From Coffea arabica (taxonomy: Eukaryota > Streptophyta > Magnoliopsida > Gentianales > Rubiaceae): 64,000 nt of DNA. Location: assembly GCF_036785885.1 (NCBI RefSeq), contig NC_092320.1:16617557-16681556 (forward strand), read 5' to 3'. Within the stretch, counting starts at the first letter, position 1. Each line of letters starts with the position of its first letter. Both the position numbers and the translations under genes were made by a program. Below, in pieces: positions 6,485 to 29,632 of this stretch. The notes under the pieces were generated by a model. It did no database searches. It was given only the letters and a program-made list of their open reading frames with translations, and was not told the origin of the DNA.

Positions 6485-7605
6485 CTAAGCAGTGGGATAA
6501 GAAGCCTGGCTGGCGATGCCACAAAGGCCTTCTGGAGCACCAGTGTCTCTCTGAAGGCGCATGTACCCATCCTCACCCCAGCTAGTTCCCCAGGAATTCT
6601 TAACCAACCAATACTTGGTTCCATCCTCACTTGTACCGTATCCAACTAGTGTCACGGCATGGTCCAAGTTATTCCCACAATCGCCGGAGAAAACGCCGCT
6701 TTGATAGTTTTTGAAGTCCATGCCGCTGCCTTCAATGCCAACTGATACGGGTTGTTTAGACACGGCCTGCAGAAGAGCATCCTCGTTATTCTGAGGGACA
6801 TCTTCATAACTTGTGATCCGGACAGCTCCTTGGTCGTTATTGCAAGTGCCATCAGCTCCTTGATATGGGTACTCGGATTCAGTGGCGAGGCCATTGCTAG
6901 CAATGAAATTAAATGCTTCATCCATGCGACCTCCACTGCAGCCATGATTACTACTGGTATCACAGTCAACAAGCTGTTGCTCAGACAGCGAGGTTAGCTG
7001 ACCGGCTTTGAGTTTATGAATTCCTTCTACGGCTGCAACAGCTGAAAATGCCCAACAACATCCTGCATTTTCATTATCCAAAGGGGTTTTTCATCCTAAT
7101 TAGCCCAACTTCATATAGACATTTTGGCATGGAAAGCATATACTAATGGTGGTCAAATATTGGACTTACCACAAGCTGCCTGGTCCTTGACTCCAGTGAC
7201 AGCACCTTTCTGTCTCCAGTCCGTGGAAGGCGGAGCGTCACTGACATCTGCATACCTGAATGAAGTTCCTTGAGATACGTCTTTCCTTGGTTTGTAGTTG
7301 TACCCAGTGCTGGCTGATAGGAACTCTTCGTTTGTCAGGTCAGCAAATCGGTTAATGCCCAACACGTAAGACTTGTTCCCAGCCTTGTTGAAGGCCTCAA
7401 TGTACTCCACAGTTTCCTTGAAAATCTTGAATCGCTTTGCCTTCTCTGCCTCATCCTTGTAAACCCGTCCGTGTTCAACCATCCACTGCTCGTGCTTTTC
7501 AGTCAATGAGGCTTCATCCAAGCTGCGGGCCGTAGCTTGAGAAGCCAACATCGCCAGCAGTAAGAATGCGGCAGTAACCAGCATAGAATTGAATGTCCAA
7601 GCCAT
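6485..7605 (-). CDS. SAG12-like papain-family cysteine protease (unit 1 copy)
   Basis: Two exons, 7605-7170 and 7062-6485, with a 107-bp GT-AG intron splitting a Gly codon give 337 residues, normal for this family. Residues 1-26 form a hydrophobic signal peptide. An I29 inhibitory propeptide (about 36-93) has the ERFNIN-like helix and the GINRFADLTNEEF segment. The mature peptidase C1A domain starts about residue 125. All catalytic residues are present: Gln142, Cys148 in CGCCWAFS, His280 in LDHAVT and Asn301 in KNSWGTSWG. The CCWAF variant is typical of SAG12-type enzymes. The product is expected to enter the secretory pathway and be activated by propeptide removal in vacuole or apoplast, degrading protein in senescence or defence; that role is inferred from the family. 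The start is the only Met ahead of the signal peptide. Confidence 0.92.
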
Positions 7606-15419: not shown

Positions 15420-16540
15420 CTAAGCAGTGGGATAAGAAGCCTGGCTGGCGATGCCACAAAGGCCTTCTGGAGCACCAGTGTCTCTCTGAAGGCGCATGTA
15501 CCCATCCTCACCCCAGCTAGTTCCCCAGGAATTCTTAACCAACCAATACTTGGTTCCATCCTCACTTGTACCGTATCCAACTAGTGTCACGGCATGGTCC
15601 AAGTTATTCCCACAATCGCCGGAGAAAACGCCGCTTTGATAGTTTTTGAAGTCCATGCCGCTGCCTTCAATGCCAACTGATACGGGTTGTTTAGACACGG
15701 CCTGCAGAAGAGCATCCTCGTTATTCTGAGGGACATCTTCATAACTTGTGATCCGGACAGCTCCTTGGTCGTTATTGCAAGTGCCATCAGCTCCTTGATA
15801 TGGGTACTCGGATTCAGTGGCGAGGCCATTGCTAGCAATGAAATTAAATGCTTCATCCATGCGACCTCCACTGCAGCCATGATTACTACTGGTATCACAG
15901 TCAACAAGCTGTTGCTCAGACAGCGAGGTTAGCTGACCGGCTTTGAGTTTATGAATTCCTTCTACGGCTGCAACAGCTGAAAATGCCCAACAACATCCTG
16001 CATTTTCATTATCCAAAGGGGTTTTTCATCCTAATTAGCCCAACTTCATATAGACATTTTGGCATGGAAAGCATATACTAATGGTGGTCAAATATTGGAC
16101 TTACCACAAGCTGCCTGGTCCTTGACTCCAGTGACAGCACCTTTCTGTCTCCAGTCCGTGGAAGGCGGAGCGTCACTGACATCTGCATACCTGAATGAAG
16201 TTCCTTGAGATACGTCTTTCCTTGGTTTGTAGTTGTACCCAGTGCTGGCTGATAGGAACTCTTCGTTTGTCAGGTCAGCAAATCGGTTAATGCCCAACAC
16301 GTAAGACTTGTTCCCAGCCTTGTTGAAGGCCTCAATGTACTCCACAGTTTCCTTGAAAATCTTGAATCGCTTTGCCTTCTCTGCCTCATCCTTGTAAACC
16401 CGTCCGTGTTCAACCATCCACTGCTCGTGCTTTTCAGTCAATGAGGCTTCATCCAAGCTGCGGGCCGTAGCTTGAGAAGCCAACATCGCCAGCAGTAAGA
16501 ATGCGGCAGTAACCAGCATAGAATTGAATGTCCAAGCCAT
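15420..16540 (-). CDS. SAG12-like cysteine protease (unit 2 copy)
   Basis: Exons 16540-16105 and 15997-15420 encode a 337-residue protein identical to the unit 1 product, including Gln142, Cys148, His280 and Asn301. Identity extends through the intron and both flanks, so regulation should be the same and short reads could not tell the two genes apart. A minus-strand AATAAA follows about 190 bp after the stop codon. Confidence 0.92.
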
Positions 16541-16662
16541 TGTTTGATTAAGAGCTCAAAGAAACAAGTGAATGGAAGAATCTGAGAGTATAAAGCCAAT
16601 AAATTATGGTGCAAAAGATTTGAATGGGAAGCCACACTGCTTCCATTCAGAATACCAGCTAG

Positions 16663-16671
16663 CTATTTATA
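16663..16671 (-). promoter_or_regulatory. TATA box of protease gene, unit 2
   Basis: TATAAATAG on the minus strand, at the same 123-bp distance from the ATG as in unit 1. Confidence 0.6.
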
Positions 16672-17383
16672 GATTTCAGTTCGGAAAGCTGAGTTAATTA
16701 TGACCAAATTTCCATCGTTTTGGTCCTAGAAACTCTGGCAAAATTATGCCCTAGATTGATGGGCAATCAGAAGCTCGGTTGGCATGCGTGAGCGTTGGTT
16801 TTGGGGCAGACGTAGGAAGTATTTGTGATACTCTTTATCAAACTATTAAGAATTAGTTATATGTGATACTCTTTAGTGAATGGTCTATTTAGAAACAACT
16901 TTATTCCCCTTTTCTTCTAATGAAACCTATCCTGAAATTATGCACTATTTCTTACTTAGACATTTGTACCTTATGCTCTTGCAGTTTATCTTATATTTAA
17001 GTAATTGAAGAAATATGAAACTAAAAAATAATATAATATATTGAAAAGCGGTGAGGTGTCTTAAAATAAAAAATGTTTGCATCTTTCACATTTGGAAACA
17101 TCTATATATGACTACACTAATATCAAATCAGGTGATGCAATGTATCCAAAAATTGGAGTTTTGAATGCAACGTTCAAAATAAACACGAGTTAAGGGTATA
17201 ATTCAACTTGATTTTTTTAGGTAAATAATAAAGAAAAGTACAACAGATGGGGATGGCAAACCCGTCTATTGTCCTCATCAAAAGCAAAGGATACTTCACG
17301 GGGACATGATTCAATAAACACAAAGTATCTATCCAGATTACATCCCAGTATAGCTAGTGGTGCATCAGCACATCCCAGAATCA

Positions 17384-17847
17384 CTTTAGTTGAACAAGAA
17401 GATGCCATCGAAGTCTATGCAGCAAGTCCAGTCGGAGAAGTTGATAAACTGCCGGAGTTCATTCTTCCCCGTCGAACACTCTTGTGCTCCGCGATTGGTA
17501 AGGGTAAGGACAAAAATTGATGGCTGTTCAAGACCTGTAATGAGCAAGACCTCAGTAATTTGTAAACCAAGAAGCTGATTCGCTAATGAAGTCTATGCGG
17601 CAAGTCTTGCAGAAGAAGTTGATGAAGTTTCGATCGGAGTTCAATCTGCCCCGCGGAACATTCAAGTGCCGCCGCAATTTGTGTAAGGATTAGGACAGCA
17701 GAAGTTGATGGCTGTTAAAGAAATGTAAAGACCGGGACCTCAAGTAATTTACTGCAGTGTAACGGCGAAGACCTCGAAATTCATGTCCCATGCAGCAATT
17801 TCTGTGGAATTGATAAAGTCTCCATTAGAGTTCCGTTCGGAACATGC
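17384..17847. repeat. Degenerate 180-bp repeats (unit 2)
   Basis: Counterpart of 8449-8912; no difference seen by eye. Confidence 0.7.
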
Positions 17848-18244
17848 CAATGGCGGAGTCAGGACCCTAGAGTTAGGGCGTCAATTTACGATAGCACGAT
17901 AATAGTAGAGTTTAAAACCAATAAATATGTCCATCTTAAAAATTCATACTCTCCTATGGTAAATATACTTTTTTTTAATTTAAATTGCGCTTAAAATTTA
18001 TAGTGAAAATTACCTTTGAATTAACATTTTTGGTAAGTCTAACACTCTTGTGAAGGGTGATGATTATAATTTTTTAATTATTTTTGGGAGCTATGTATGA
18101 TAGGAAAGGGATTTTTTAAAATTTTAGAAGGGCAAATAAGTAACGATATTAGAAATTTCTGAACTTTCTAAGCTTAAAACATAATTTTCTCAAAATTGAG
18201 GGGGTGCAATTGTTCTCCCTCAACTATATGTGGCTCCACCGCTG
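17848..18244. mobile_element. hAT-type MITE C at the unit 2/unit 3 junction
   Basis: Counterpart of 8913-9309, with GAACATGC and AAACATGC flanks. Confidence 0.8.
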
Positions 18245-19351
18245 AAACATGCAAGTGCGACCGCGGTTACTAAGGCCGACTTGCAAGGACTAGAGCAGCA
18301 AAATGTCACGCAGAGAGTGAATTAAGTACCGAACTTTATTTTAGTTTTAGTCTATTTGAGTAAATTCCTAGGGTTGAAAGAGAAATGAAATTACTTGATT
18401 CTCAAAATCATCTCCATGAGAAAAGAGTTTGGTTTGCTAACTAATCAAGTTAATTATAAATAGTATTTTGTGCTCAGTAAAATTTTAAATTTAACTTGAA
18501 CTTGATTCAATCAGCATAAAACTTGAAATTTATGTGTAAAAAAACTCAAGTTACTATAAATTGATTCAAGCTTGACTTGATTAAAGGTTATTTTAGTTCA
18601 ATTTTTTGATAAGCAAATATGCCAAATTTGAACGTATTGCTGAACACATTAAAATAAATAAACAAAATTAAACACTGAAGTGTTTGGGTTGAGTAGACTC
18701 ATTTACACTTGTATAAATGATGCCATTAGTAATCCTTGAAATTAAGTTCCTCGTGCTCTTAGTTAAATCCTCAACTTTTGAATGTGTCATCCTGGCTCTA
18801 ATCTTTTCAATTTTCAAGCCAAATTCAAGTTTTTTTTCCATTTTAATTGCCTTCCTTGGGTTTGACTTGATGTCAATTTAGAAAGTAGGCAAACATTTTT
18901 GCTGCCTCTTATGGTTTTATTTAAATTAATTAGTGTTTAAGGTACATAATATATGCGTGCCGGTGATTAAAATTATGATCACTTGTAAATATTTGTCACA
19001 AAAAATGTTTTTCACTTGGAAAATATTTATGGTGAGGGTTTCTTGTATTGTGTTCACTTATTTATTTGGTAGTTGCTAACGTAATTAAAATCTCTACATT
19101 AAGCTCTTAAAAATAGGAGGCTGGGGAAGCAATCAATTCACTAAATTACCCTTGAAATTATTATTTCTGTATGTGTAGAAAAGGTAAATACTCTTACTAG
19201 TGAAGATATTACAAGAAGTTTAAAAAATGGCAAATATGTACTGGCACCACATAGTGGACTCCTCCTTTGTGTATTGTGTAGACTAGGTTAGTCTAACTGT
19301 GGAAGTCACAGCCGAAAATTTTATTTTAATTCATACTCTCTTGCATAATTG

Positions 19352-22871: not shown

Positions 22872-23464
22872 CTATCAGTGTGTATTTTTTATTTTTTTTT
22901 ACATTAATAGGTTTACCCTTCTTGCTAATTTTTTTTCTTAAGGTAGGGGAAAAATTCAAAAACATATTAGTTAAAGAGTAAGTTTTTATACATTGAATCT
23001 TAAACCTCATCCTTCTTGCTAATTTTTTCAAAGGCAAGGAAAAATTCAAGAAAATATTAGTTAAAGAGTAAGTTTTTTATACACTATCAGTGAACAATTT
23101 TTTTTTCTTTTTACACTAGAAGATTCACCCTTCTTGCTAATTTTTTTAAGGTAGGGAAAAAACTCAAGTTACATATTAGTTACAAAGTAAGTTTTTTGAT
23201 GCAATGCATTGTCAGTATATAATTTTTTTTTTTTTTACACTAGAAGATTCACCCTTCTTGCTACTTTATCTCAGGGCAAGGAAAAATTCAATAGCATATT
23301 AGTTAAAGGGTAAGTTTTTAATACATTGTTAGTGTACAAATTTTTTCATAATAGCATATTCACCTTTCTTCCTAATTTTTTTGTCAAGGCAAGGAAAACT
23401 TCAACAACATATTAGTTAAAGAGTAAATTTTTTATATACTGTCAGTGAACATTTTTTTTACACT
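22872..23464. repeat. Minisatellite (unit 3)
   Basis: Counterpart of 5013-5605. Confidence 0.85.
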
Positions 23465-24343
23465 AGCATATTTAGATCATGCCATATAATATAAATTCAA
23501 ATTTGGGATTCAAATCATTCACATATGTGATGCATTTATAACTACTAGTGTTTAAAAAATCACTACACACATGTGATGCACTTAAGAAGTTTATGAGGAA
23601 TTTATCTGTGTGGTTGTTTTCTTAAGCACCGACTCTAGTGAATTATATGGAGAGGGCTAGTGCAGTCAGGTACAGTTCAGTCCGGTTATTGTATTTATTA
23701 TATTATTTGATGCGTAATTACATTACATTATTGTATTCAAGATAAAATTAATATATATGAATAAAATATTCAACATAGTACAATATTATGATGTATGTGT
23801 ACACTACAAATTTAAACATGTACACTGAACGGACCAAACCGTACAAAAACACAATTGTATTGAGTCATTGTCCAAATTTATATATACGCGAGCAACACGA
23901 TATTTATCAAGGTATTTTGTTAGGATAGTCTAGCGAGTTCTTATGCACCAACTCTTCTGACTTGCGCGATTATTGGTTACTCAAGAATTCTTTCCCGTTA
24001 TTATGAATTCTTCCTTTCCAGTTAGACTGGTAATATTTCTTTTCTCAGCATATATGGGCAGCACCAAAAAAAAAAAAAAAGACTATTCCTCCAAAAAAAA
24101 AATAATAAATAAAGAAGAAGATCATACTTCACTAAAGAGACCAAACACCATTTATTCAGGCAAAAACAAGAAACAATACATGTTAAGCTGATAAAGGCTA
24201 TATGAGATACGTAATAAAAGGCACTGCATCACAAGACAAGATGCTAGTTTCATGCTTATAACATCAGACCGTGATATATAGAAAAAGCAGAATTGCTTTC
24301 TAATTAATGAAGCACCAGCAATTATTTCAACATTTAAACTATT

Positions 24344-24895
24344 CTAAGCAGTGGGATAAGAAGCCTGGCTGGCGATGCCACAAAGGCCTTCTGGAGCACC
24401 AGTGTCTCTCTGAAGGCGCATGTACCCATCCTCACCCCAGCTAGTTCCCCAGGACTTACCACAAGCTGCCTGGTCCTTGACTCCAGTGACAGCACCTTTC
24501 TGTCTCCAGTCCGTGGAAGGCGGAGCGTCACTGACATCTGCATACCTGAATGAAGTTCCTTGAGATACGTCTTTCCTTGGTTTGTAGTTGTACCCAGTGC
24601 TGGCTGATAGGAACTCTTCGTTTGTCAGGTCAGCAAATCGGTTAATGCCCAACACGTAAGACTTGTTCCCAGCCTTGTTGAAGGCCTCAATGTACTCCAC
24701 AGTTTCCTTGAAAATCTTGAATCGCTTTGCCTTCTCTGCCTCATCCTTGTAAACCCGTCCGTGTTCAACCATCCACTGCTCGTGCTTTTCAGTCAATGAG
24801 GCTTCATACAAGCTCCGGGCGGTAGCCTGAGAAGCCAACATCGCCAGCAGTAAGAATGCGGCAGTAATCAGCATAGAATTGAATGTCCAAGCCAT
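24344..24895 (-). pseudogene. Protease gene with internal deletion: propeptide-only open frame (unit 3)
   Basis: The gene starts and stops like its neighbours but lacks 569 bp corresponding to 6596-7164 of unit 1: the 5' splice site side of the intron, the acceptor and about 80 percent of exon 2. Both break points share GGA, so one GGA remains (microhomology joining). The result is an unbroken 183-codon frame: signal peptide, complete I29 propeptide, about 20 residues of the mature N-terminus, then the last 36 residues starting SWGTSWG. Cys148, His280 and Asn301 are all absent, so it cannot be a protease. The old donor GTAAGT is now read as coding (Gly-Lys-Ser), with no acceptor nearby. Val10 is Ile and Asp30 is Tyr compared with units 1 and 2. 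TATA box and 3' flank are kept, so it may be transcribed. It is either a young pseudogene or a source of free propeptide. Confidence 0.9.
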
Positions 24896-25017
24896 TGTTT
24901 GATTAAGAGCTCAAAGAAACAAGTGAATGAAAGAATCTGAGAGTATAAAGCCAATAAATTATGGTGCAAAAGATGTTAATGGGAAGCCACACTGCTTCCC
25001 TTCAGAATACCAGCTAG

Positions 25018-25026
25018 CTATTTATA
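25018..25026 (-). promoter_or_regulatory. TATA box of truncated protease gene, unit 3
   Basis: TATAAATAG on the minus strand, 123 bp from the ATG. It is conserved although the surrounding promoter differs from units 1 and 2 by scattered substitutions. Confidence 0.55.
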
Positions 25027-25181
25027 GATTTCAGTTCGGAAAGGTGAGTTAATTATGACTGAATTCCCATCATTTTGGTCCTAGAAACTCTGGGAAAATT
25101 ATGCCCAAGATTGACGGGCAATCAGAAGATCGGTTGGCATGCGTGAGCGTTGGTTTTGGGGCAGACGTAGGAAGTATTTGT

Positions 25182-25974
25182 CTAAGCAGAAGAATATATT
25201 GAACTAAAAGTCGACCGATCCAGAAGAACGTTAAAAAAAGGGCAGTTCATCTTTCTGGCTAAATTAATGAAGCATTATGACAGATACATTAACTAAAATT
25301 AGGCACGGGAACTTAAAAAACTGTTTTACAGTGATATTTTGATTAAACCATCCATCTTTTAAGTTTTCTATGGACTAATTTCATTTTAGACCTATGATTG
25401 ATTCTCAATTTGCATCCTCATTTCGATTTTGGACACATTCTTGCATATACTTTCAGGGTGATCATATTTTAGTCAAATTGTTAACATTGTTTAGGGATTA
25501 TTTCGTAGGCACTACGCACTGATTAGTCAGTTGATCAAATTTCACTTTGTACCCCTAACTCATTATTTAAATTCACGTTGCAACTTTAAACTCTAATTTT
25601 TGGACACATTGCGCTTCCATTCTAATTTTGTAATATGCTGCTAGTGGTGCAACAGCACATCCCAGAATCACTTTAGTTTAGCTGGTGAATCACTTTAGTT
25701 GGTGATCATTGAAGTGAAACTAAACTTGCTATCGAAATAAATAAAAGCATGTGCAGGTAGGCCTTGATGTATATTATCATAAATTTTCCAAAGAAGAGGC
25801 CTGTAATTTAGTCAAAATTTTTAGCAATGATTAGGTCAAATTGAAATAATTACCAGAAATAACCTAAGAAAAGCAAGCATAACAATTGCAGGTTTCTAAA
25901 TTAATTCTATACCATCAGGCATTGCTCAAATTTGTAGATCAGAAAATAATCTTCCGGTTTGCCTGATTAAATTG
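25182..25974. other. Unit 3-specific spacer, no gene seen
   Basis: Homology to the promoter side of units 1 and 2 stops at 25181. Only 25640-25680 (GCTAGTGGTGCAACAGCACA and following) matches 8418-8455. The rest is AT-rich DNA without a recognised element. Confidence 0.6.
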
Positions 25975-26653
25975 ATGGGTGTCCAGGGCCTATAAAGACA
26001 CAAGACCTCAGGTAAACGTTGTGCGTAACCAAGAAGATTCGCCATTGGAGTCTATGCAGCGAGTCCAGTCGAAGAATTTGATAAACTCTCGGAGATCATT
26101 CTTCCCGGCGGGAACCTGCAAGTTCCCCACTATTGGTATCTAGAACAGCAGAAATTGGCAGCTGCTGTAGACCTGTAAATATCACGACATCAAGTAAACT
26201 TAGTGTTAAACAAGAAGATGCCATCAAAGTCTACGCAGCAAGTCTAGTCGGAGAAGTTGATAAACTGTCGGAGTTCATTCTTCCGCGTGGAACATTCATG
26301 TGCTCAGCGATTGGCAAGGGTAAGGACAAAAATTGAAGGCTGTTCAAGACCTCCGGTAGTGTAAACCAAGAAGCTGATTCGCCAATGAAGTCTATGCGGC
26401 AAGTCTTGCAGAAGAAGTTGATGAAGTTTGGTTCGGAGTTCAATCTTCCCCGCCGAACATGCAAGTGCCGCCGCAATTTGTGTATGGATTAGGACAGCAG
26501 AAGTTGCGGGCTGTTAAAGACCTGTAAAGAGTAAAGACCGAGCCCTCAAGTAATTAACTGTAGTGTAACGACGAAGATCTCGAAATTCATGTCCCATGCA
26601 GCAATTTCTGCGGAGTTGATAAAGCCTCTATTAGAGTTCCGTTTGGAACATGC
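25975..26653. repeat. Degenerate 180-bp repeats, about 3.5 units (unit 3)
   Basis: Units start near 26030, 26210, 26366 and 26545. The cluster has one more unit than 8449-8912 and differs from it at roughly one base in ten. It is the older version of the cluster. Confidence 0.7.
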
Positions 26654-28843: not shown

Positions 28844-29632
28844 TTAAGAAGTAGGGTAAGAAGCTTGCATCGCAATGCCACAGAGGCCTTCTTTAGCTTC
28901 AATATCTCTTTGCATCAGGATGTATCCCTTCTCACCCCAGCCAGTTCCCCAAGAATTCTTAACCAACCAATATTTGGTTCCATCAGAGCTTGTACCGTAC
29001 CCAACGGCTGTCACACCGTGGTCTAATTCAGTCCCACAATCACCAGCGAAAACGCCGCTTGAATAGAATTGGAAGCCATTGCCACTAGCATCAATGGCAA
29101 CTGAAACAGGTTGATTGGCCACAGCCTTCAAAAGTGCAGCCTCATTGTTTGCAGGGACATCTTCATATCCGGTGATCTTTGCAGCATGATTAGCCTCCTT
29201 GTTGCTATTGCAAGTTCCATCAACGGCTTGGTACGGGTAATTAGCTTCAGTAGTAAGGCCGTTGTTGTTAATAATGAAGGTGAATGCATCGTCCATGAGG
29301 CCTCCATTGCAGCCTTCATCTTCCCCAGCAGTGTCGCAGTCAACAAGTTCTTGCTCAGACAACGAGATCAGCTTACCAGTTTTCAGCTGATGGATTCCTT
29401 CCATGGCTGCGACTGCTGAAAATGCCCAGCAACAACCTAATATTCATGTTCAAGAGGGTTAGCTAGGGAAACTGCTGAAATGTTTAATGGTGCGTGAGTA
29501 ATTCGAAAAATGATGTCTATTCTAGCTTACCACATTGGCCTTGGTCCTTAATCCCTGTGACCGCACCCTTCTTTCTCCAGTCCATGGAAGCTGGAACTGC
29601 ACTAACATTTTCATAATTTCTTTTGTCATATG
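28844..29632 (-). pseudogene. SAG12-like cysteine protease, exon 1 truncated (old copy)
   Basis: Exon 2 (29436-28844) is fully open. It carries CCWAFSAV after splicing, [11 protein letters not shown] with the catalytic His, KNSWGTGWG with the Asn, and the usual end at SYPTS. A 94-bp intron with donor GTAAGC precedes it. Exon 1 survives only from about 29632 to 29531 ([20 protein letters not shown] and KDQGQCG). Signal peptide and nearly all of the propeptide are missing, and no match was seen in the next 1.5 kb upstream. Its motifs are closer to standard SAG12 than those of the young genes (DQGQCG versus DQAACG). It is a probable pseudogene unless a distant upstream exon exists. Confidence 0.82.

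Follow-up and report, generated by a model that had tools for sequence, protein, structure and literature searches.

Copy B, an open frame in a protease gene cluster on contig C11, is very probably an allele of a papain-type cysteine protease gene that a recent deletion has deprived of its function; it lies at the margin of an unstable tandem array. It carries the marks of a pseudogene: intact parents are nearby, the active-site residues have been removed, and the recent lesion is not shared by its counterpart on contig C12. A sequence-only reading of the same DNA had described the frame as the propeptide-only product of a microhomology deletion, and had offered two interpretations, namely an inhibitor of its own paralogues or a neutral, fresh pseudogene. 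The window (that is, the whole stretch of 64,000 nucleotides that was analyzed) corresponds to C11:16617557-16681556 (G000) in a 1.198-Gb assembly of 131 contigs. Positions given below without a contig name are those of the window, and features are listed in Table 1.

Table 1. Positions of the features discussed (window coordinates unless a contig is named)
Feature	Position	Strand	Description
Copy B	24344..24895	minus	183-aa open frame: signal-peptide-like N-terminus, I29 propeptide, about 24 mature N-terminal residues, 36 C-terminal codons, native stop
I29 inhibitor domain of copy B	24611..24784	minus	Residues 38-95, complete; Pfam PF08246, 76.7 bits
C-terminal catalytic-domain remnant of copy B	24344..24454	minus	Identical to copy A
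Deletion junction in copy B	24452..24454		3 bp common to both sides; 569 bp of copy A absent
Former 5' splice donor GTAAG in copy B	24455..24459	minus	Now coding; acceptor of intact copies lies within the deleted stretch
Mosaic-switch interval of copy B	24653..24815		Between coding offsets 80 and 243 from ATG; 5' side C12-like, junction side C11-array-like
TATAAATA, TATA-like box	25019..25026	minus	-131 from ATG; match to a consensus only
Intact sister copy A	15420..16540	minus	337 aa after excision of a 107-bp intron
Second intact sister copy in the window	6485..7605	minus	Identical to copy A over the gene
Gene C, older neighbor	28844..29615	minus	68.5% protein identity to copy A in exon 2; exon 1 mostly unmatched on C11
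Truncated copy	C11:16529158-16530051		Exon 1 short by its first 227 nt; nothing upstream retained
Truncated copy	C11:16569831-16571231		42 bp of coding sequence retained, together with upstream DNA
Truncated copy	C11:16589383-16590755		About 14 bp of coding sequence retained, together with upstream DNA

The deletion is evident from comparison with the intact sister copy A. From start to stop codon, copy B measures 552 nt and copy A 1121 nt, a difference of 569. The left block of homology stops at 24454 and the right block starts at 24452, leaving an overlap that reads GGA on the plus strand and TCC on the coding strand. Beyond the junction, the frame of copy B continues through the former splice donor into the final 36 codons. 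The stretches CCWAF, LDHAV and KNSWG of copy A, which we take to hold the active-site Cys, His and Asn, are missing. The I29 profile PF08246 is covered from position 1 to 59 of 59 (cut-off 24.4 bits). Peptidase_C1 also scores above its cut-off (49.3 against 20.7 bits), with two matched stretches, the best of which covers profile positions 189-220 of 220. The earlier description of the lesion thus holds in its deletion length, its microhomology, its in-frame passage through the old donor, its loss of the three catalytic residues and its entire I29 domain. The term "propeptide-only" fits the complete I29 and the absent catalytic residues, but not the mature N-terminal residues and C-terminal codons that remain. 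The number of mature N-terminal residues was judged from where mature cathepsin L chains start matching.

When up to three mismatches were permitted, the junction pattern occurred once in the genome, and a reversed control pattern did not occur. The alignment break at 24454 was also considered as the border of a repeat unit, and this was rejected, because identity to copy A runs for 356 bp from 24452.

In simulation, 126,217 deletions of copy A gave an overlap of 3 bp or more in 5.4% of cases, and therefore the 3-bp microhomology is weak evidence for any repair pathway. The native stop was reached in frame, unspliced, in 7.3% of the same simulations. These odds are modest for one deletion that was chosen for its open frame. 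All simulated breakpoints were set after codon 125, so the open prepro frame is present in every case by construction and is not evidence. In the intact copies, the intron lies just before the catalytic Cys, and the unspliced frame runs on for four codons beyond the exon; it stops after 150 aa and ends in KSNI or KSDI in the five intact copies compared, one of which is identical over the gene to ten others. Because intact unspliced copies also have a prepro-only frame, that of copy B is a by-product of gene structure and no innovation, and any lesion downstream of the propeptide leaves such a frame open.

The two intact sister genes that the sequence-only reading had placed beside copy B are indeed present in the window, but they belong to a set of 12 intact copies on C11. 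Eleven of these are identical over the whole gene. Three more intact copies are on C12, which was read in part; the genome-wide searches list three full copies there. In the stretches read, 16 genes were located by their first 26 and last 15 bases; 15 of these are intact, and copy B is the one with the deletion. In all 15 intact copies, removal of an intron of 106 or 107 bp gives a protease precursor of 337 aa that carries CGCCWAF at its active site, where the acceptor chosen is the one that yields ACGCCWAF. We take the parent protease family to be SAG12-type. The presence of 11 identical copies on C11 versus three on C12 reflects either a very recent amplification or an effect of assembly.

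The array on C11 consists of units of about 8.9 kb in both orientations and with internal breakpoints. It spans C11:16519904-16642010 (window 1-24454), and full units differ from the unit compared by 0 to 2 mismatches and at most 29 gap positions. Direct repeats, imperfect and about 70-100 bp long, lie 90-242 bp apart in 22887-23472 and occur also at matching places of the window's other two units.

Copy B is not the only damaged member of the cluster. Three further C11 copies are truncated at differing breakpoints, as would be expected from an unstable array. Gene C on C11 and C12:15772111 have a catalytic part without an I29 match upstream. Because loss of either gene end is common in the cluster, the open prepro frame of copy B is one outcome among several. 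As described in the excerpt of PMC5293227 available to us, SAG12-type tandem arrays of Hevea, Jatropha and Ricinus resemble the C11 array in their single intron and their expansion by tandem duplication, and a tandem-duplicated pseudogene reported there for castor bean parallels copy B. The C11 array differs from the arrays of that excerpt in having 11 identical copies and one with an internal in-frame deletion.

The history of copy B is more involved than the deletion. Its upstream region and first 81 nt of coding sequence differ from those of copy A, and therefore it is not simply copy A minus 569 bp. Exon 1 has five sites that differ from copy A, of which three (coding offsets 27, 68 and 80) are shared with the C12 copies, as are many upstream sites. 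The other two are private: a synonymous change at offset 74, and a change from Asp or His to Tyr at offset 87. Additional private sites lie upstream (-177, -171, -149 and -105). At offsets 243, 261, 382 and 384, copy B instead agrees with the C11 copies. The mosaic is not perfectly clean, because at five upstream sites (-221, -151, -118, -73 and -46) copy B agrees with copy A against the C12 copies.

Around the junction, copies A and B are indistinguishable. There are no mismatches over 356 bp to the right and 4735 bp to the left, and the whole 6.6-kb unit to the left of copy B has no mismatches and 13 gap positions. A substitution rate of 7e-9 per site and year was assumed. For two lineages and 5088 bp, this rate predicts a single difference in some 14,000 years, and zero differences are compatible at the 95% level with up to about 42,000 years. 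A greater age could be hidden by gene conversion. The deletion thus appears to be recent or recently homogenized. A comparison of substitution patterns in the propeptide had been suggested as a check on function; it proved indecisive, because from codon 31 to the junction copy B has no substitution relative to copy A that could reveal selection on the propeptide.

A second haplotype provides a comparison. Matches to the family occur at paired places on C11 and C12, C3 and C4, C9 and C10, and further pairs of contigs. The large contigs are probably the two haplotypes of a diploid plant, and the assembly looks haplotype-resolved. The positional counterpart of copy B on C12 (15775939-15777059) is an intact gene for the 337-aa protein. 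Window positions 24453-26243 match C12 15776617-15778289 in pieces of 80-95% identity; then, after 8.6 kb unique to C12, 26239-29615 match in pieces of 86-92% identity up to 15789510. For the other two C12 copies, matches to the region upstream of copy B stop at 25356. The array copies have matches of their own to these C12 stretches (16001-16826 at 96.7% and 17414-19189 at 93-95%); therefore, assignment of the counterpart rests on 25182-26243, which copy A does not share, and on the common neighbor, gene C. Because the counterpart is intact, only one of the two haplotypes is seen to carry the deletion.

Gene C has an open catalytic exon and no I29 match on C11, and its own C12 counterpart retains I29 positions 18-59. 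Separately, the coding sequence of copy A compared with that of the C12 counterpart of copy B gives a dN of 0.020 and a dS of 0.023 overall. For codons 126-337, dN is 0.026 and dS 0.015, and for codons 1-125 they are 0.010 and 0.037. Between haplotypes, amino-acid change per site exceeds silent change in the mature protease and falls below it in the prepro part, and the counts are too small to claim selection.

We therefore favor a simple course of events for the loss-of-function allele. Recombination would have joined an array-type gene body to an older edge promoter and signal-peptide end. Then, if this order is correct, an intragenic deletion of 569 bp whose ends overlap by 3 bp would have taken out the intron and the active-site region. 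The leftover frame would be open by virtue of the position of the lesion downstream of the propeptide, and not through selection. The single junction, the intact C12 counterpart, the lack of nearby mismatches to the array and the other truncated copies all lend support to the suggestion of a neutral, fresh pseudogene. Two haplotypes were compared, and freshness of the deletion is no proof of neutrality.

Such an allele need not be silent. The I29 domain is intact, the TATA-like box is at an equal position in copy A and in the C12 counterpart, and over about 0.9 kb the region upstream resembles that of the intact counterpart (93.6% identity across 24453-25787). For these reasons, copy B may well be transcribed. 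If so, an intronless mRNA with the native stop would result, and a secreted fragment could be made. The product would most likely be neutral, or be cleared by ER quality control or proteolysis. That copy B has a signal peptide and is transcribed, and that its product is secreted and folds, are all predictions from the nucleotide sequence. Single-sequence structure prediction of the 183-aa product gave a mean pLDDT of 49.3, with residues 76-183 below 50, and was set aside.

One alternative is that copy B is expressed, and that a secreted or vacuolar I29 protein inhibits the sister proteases in trans, as do CTLA-2, BCPI and crammer in animals. We consider this unlikely. In I29 inhibition, a globular propeptide docks on the enzyme and an extended part crosses the active-site cleft. 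The I29 domain of copy B is complete, and one matched stretch spans, by the tabulated ranges, residues 34-152 in papain zymogens and 35-152 in procaricain of solved structure. However, the deletion is on only one of two haplotypes, and no substitutions indicate selection. The catalytic remnants retain two cysteines whose usual disulfide partners, presumably paired as in papain, were deleted, so that folding may suffer. Also, nearly the same propeptide is already present in every intact copy.

Published precedents show that the chemistry is reasonable. In barley, recombinant propeptides bind tightly to, and competitively inhibit, both their cognate proteases and others from the same plant, although not every propeptide inhibits every L-like enzyme (PMC3355106, in excerpt). 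A recombinant propeptide from Calotropis acts on human cathepsin L with a Ki of 2.3 nM (PMC6010012, likewise in excerpt). By the part of PMC4089206 consulted, CTLA-2alpha, crammer and BCPI, all of them free I29 proteins, differ in their mechanisms of inhibition. Like copy B, they combine an I29 domain with the lack of a functional catalytic domain, although in copy B Peptidase_C1 is still matched above its cut-off. The genes of these inhibitors are established and their inhibition has been measured; in contrast, copy B is seen on one haplotype, carries catalytic remnants and is known from sequence alone. A free I29 inhibitor would be expected to persist as a separate gene, whereas the C12 counterpart of copy B, in the one other haplotype compared, is a full protease gene. 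A plant precedent for a free propeptide-like inhibitor is the subtilisin propeptide-like inhibitor SPI-1 of Arabidopsis, which differs in both protease and inhibitor family (I9; PMC7017114, in excerpt). No naturally free plant I29 gene was met among the titles and abstract openings searched, and we make no claim of absence. Inhibition of its own paralogues, as had been proposed for copy B, is thus chemically possible to judge from barley propeptides in vitro (PMC3355106), but nothing was found in favor of expression, maintenance or selection.

Of 65 I29 matches across the genome, 62 are followed within 3 kb downstream by an N-terminal part of Peptidase_C1 (profile start at most 30). The three others are copy B, C11:16515790 and C7:47847520, and such absences are soft, because the Peptidase_C1 search scored 150 of 235 candidates. 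The comparison used 73 of 140 listed Peptidase_C1 matches; the 67 left out are mainly later-exon and weaker matches, and include N-terminal ones at C19:47966775, C3:26493019, C4:26924664, C3:26483002 and C4:26914720. One of the 67, C11:16516642 (profile positions 180-220), is near C11:16515790, and none is within 3 kb of copy B or C7:47847520. We rejected C11:16515790 as an orphan I29, because Peptidase_C1 is matched from profile position 41 on just downstream, which indicates a damaged or unmatched protease gene. For C7:47847520, no Peptidase_C1 part is within 3 kb among the matches listed. The surrounding C7:47847349-47847933 (minus strand; L022) is apparently a protease exon 1 with I29, presumably RD21-like by resemblance, and its frame stops four codons after KDQGSCG. 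Among the matches listed, there is no I29 match at the paired place on C8.

A more specific form of the inhibitor proposal is that copy B is a newborn free I29 inhibitor on one haplotype, in which a transcript from the edge promoter yields a secreted propeptide that inhibits the 12 intact sisters, making a dominant-negative allele in one step. We regard this version as distinctly improbable.

An assembly error at the place where near-identical array units meet unique flanking DNA could in principle create an apparent deletion. The identity of 11 of the 12 intact C11 copies and the arrangement of the units, with both orientations and internal breakpoints, make a hard target for an assembler. 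However, the junction is clean, with its 3-bp overlap, and copy B has private differences (offsets 74 and 87 and several upstream) and a right flank that is common to C12 and not to copy A, which shows that it is not a collapsed array unit. An artifact is therefore very improbable. The idea that the whole array makes an inhibitory propeptide through intron retention in intact copies, and that copy B only fixes this in one copy, accords with the placement of the intron, but the unspliced frame is an expected consequence of gene structure and retained, stable, translated forms are hypothetical, so we give it almost no credence.

As it stands, copy B, the probable loss-of-function allele, illustrates the shedding of truncated copies by tandem protease arrays. 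If its product were made and active, it would show how a free propeptide inhibitor can begin to emerge from a protease gene, with the parent gene still adjacent and an undeleted counterpart in the same plant to serve as a control.
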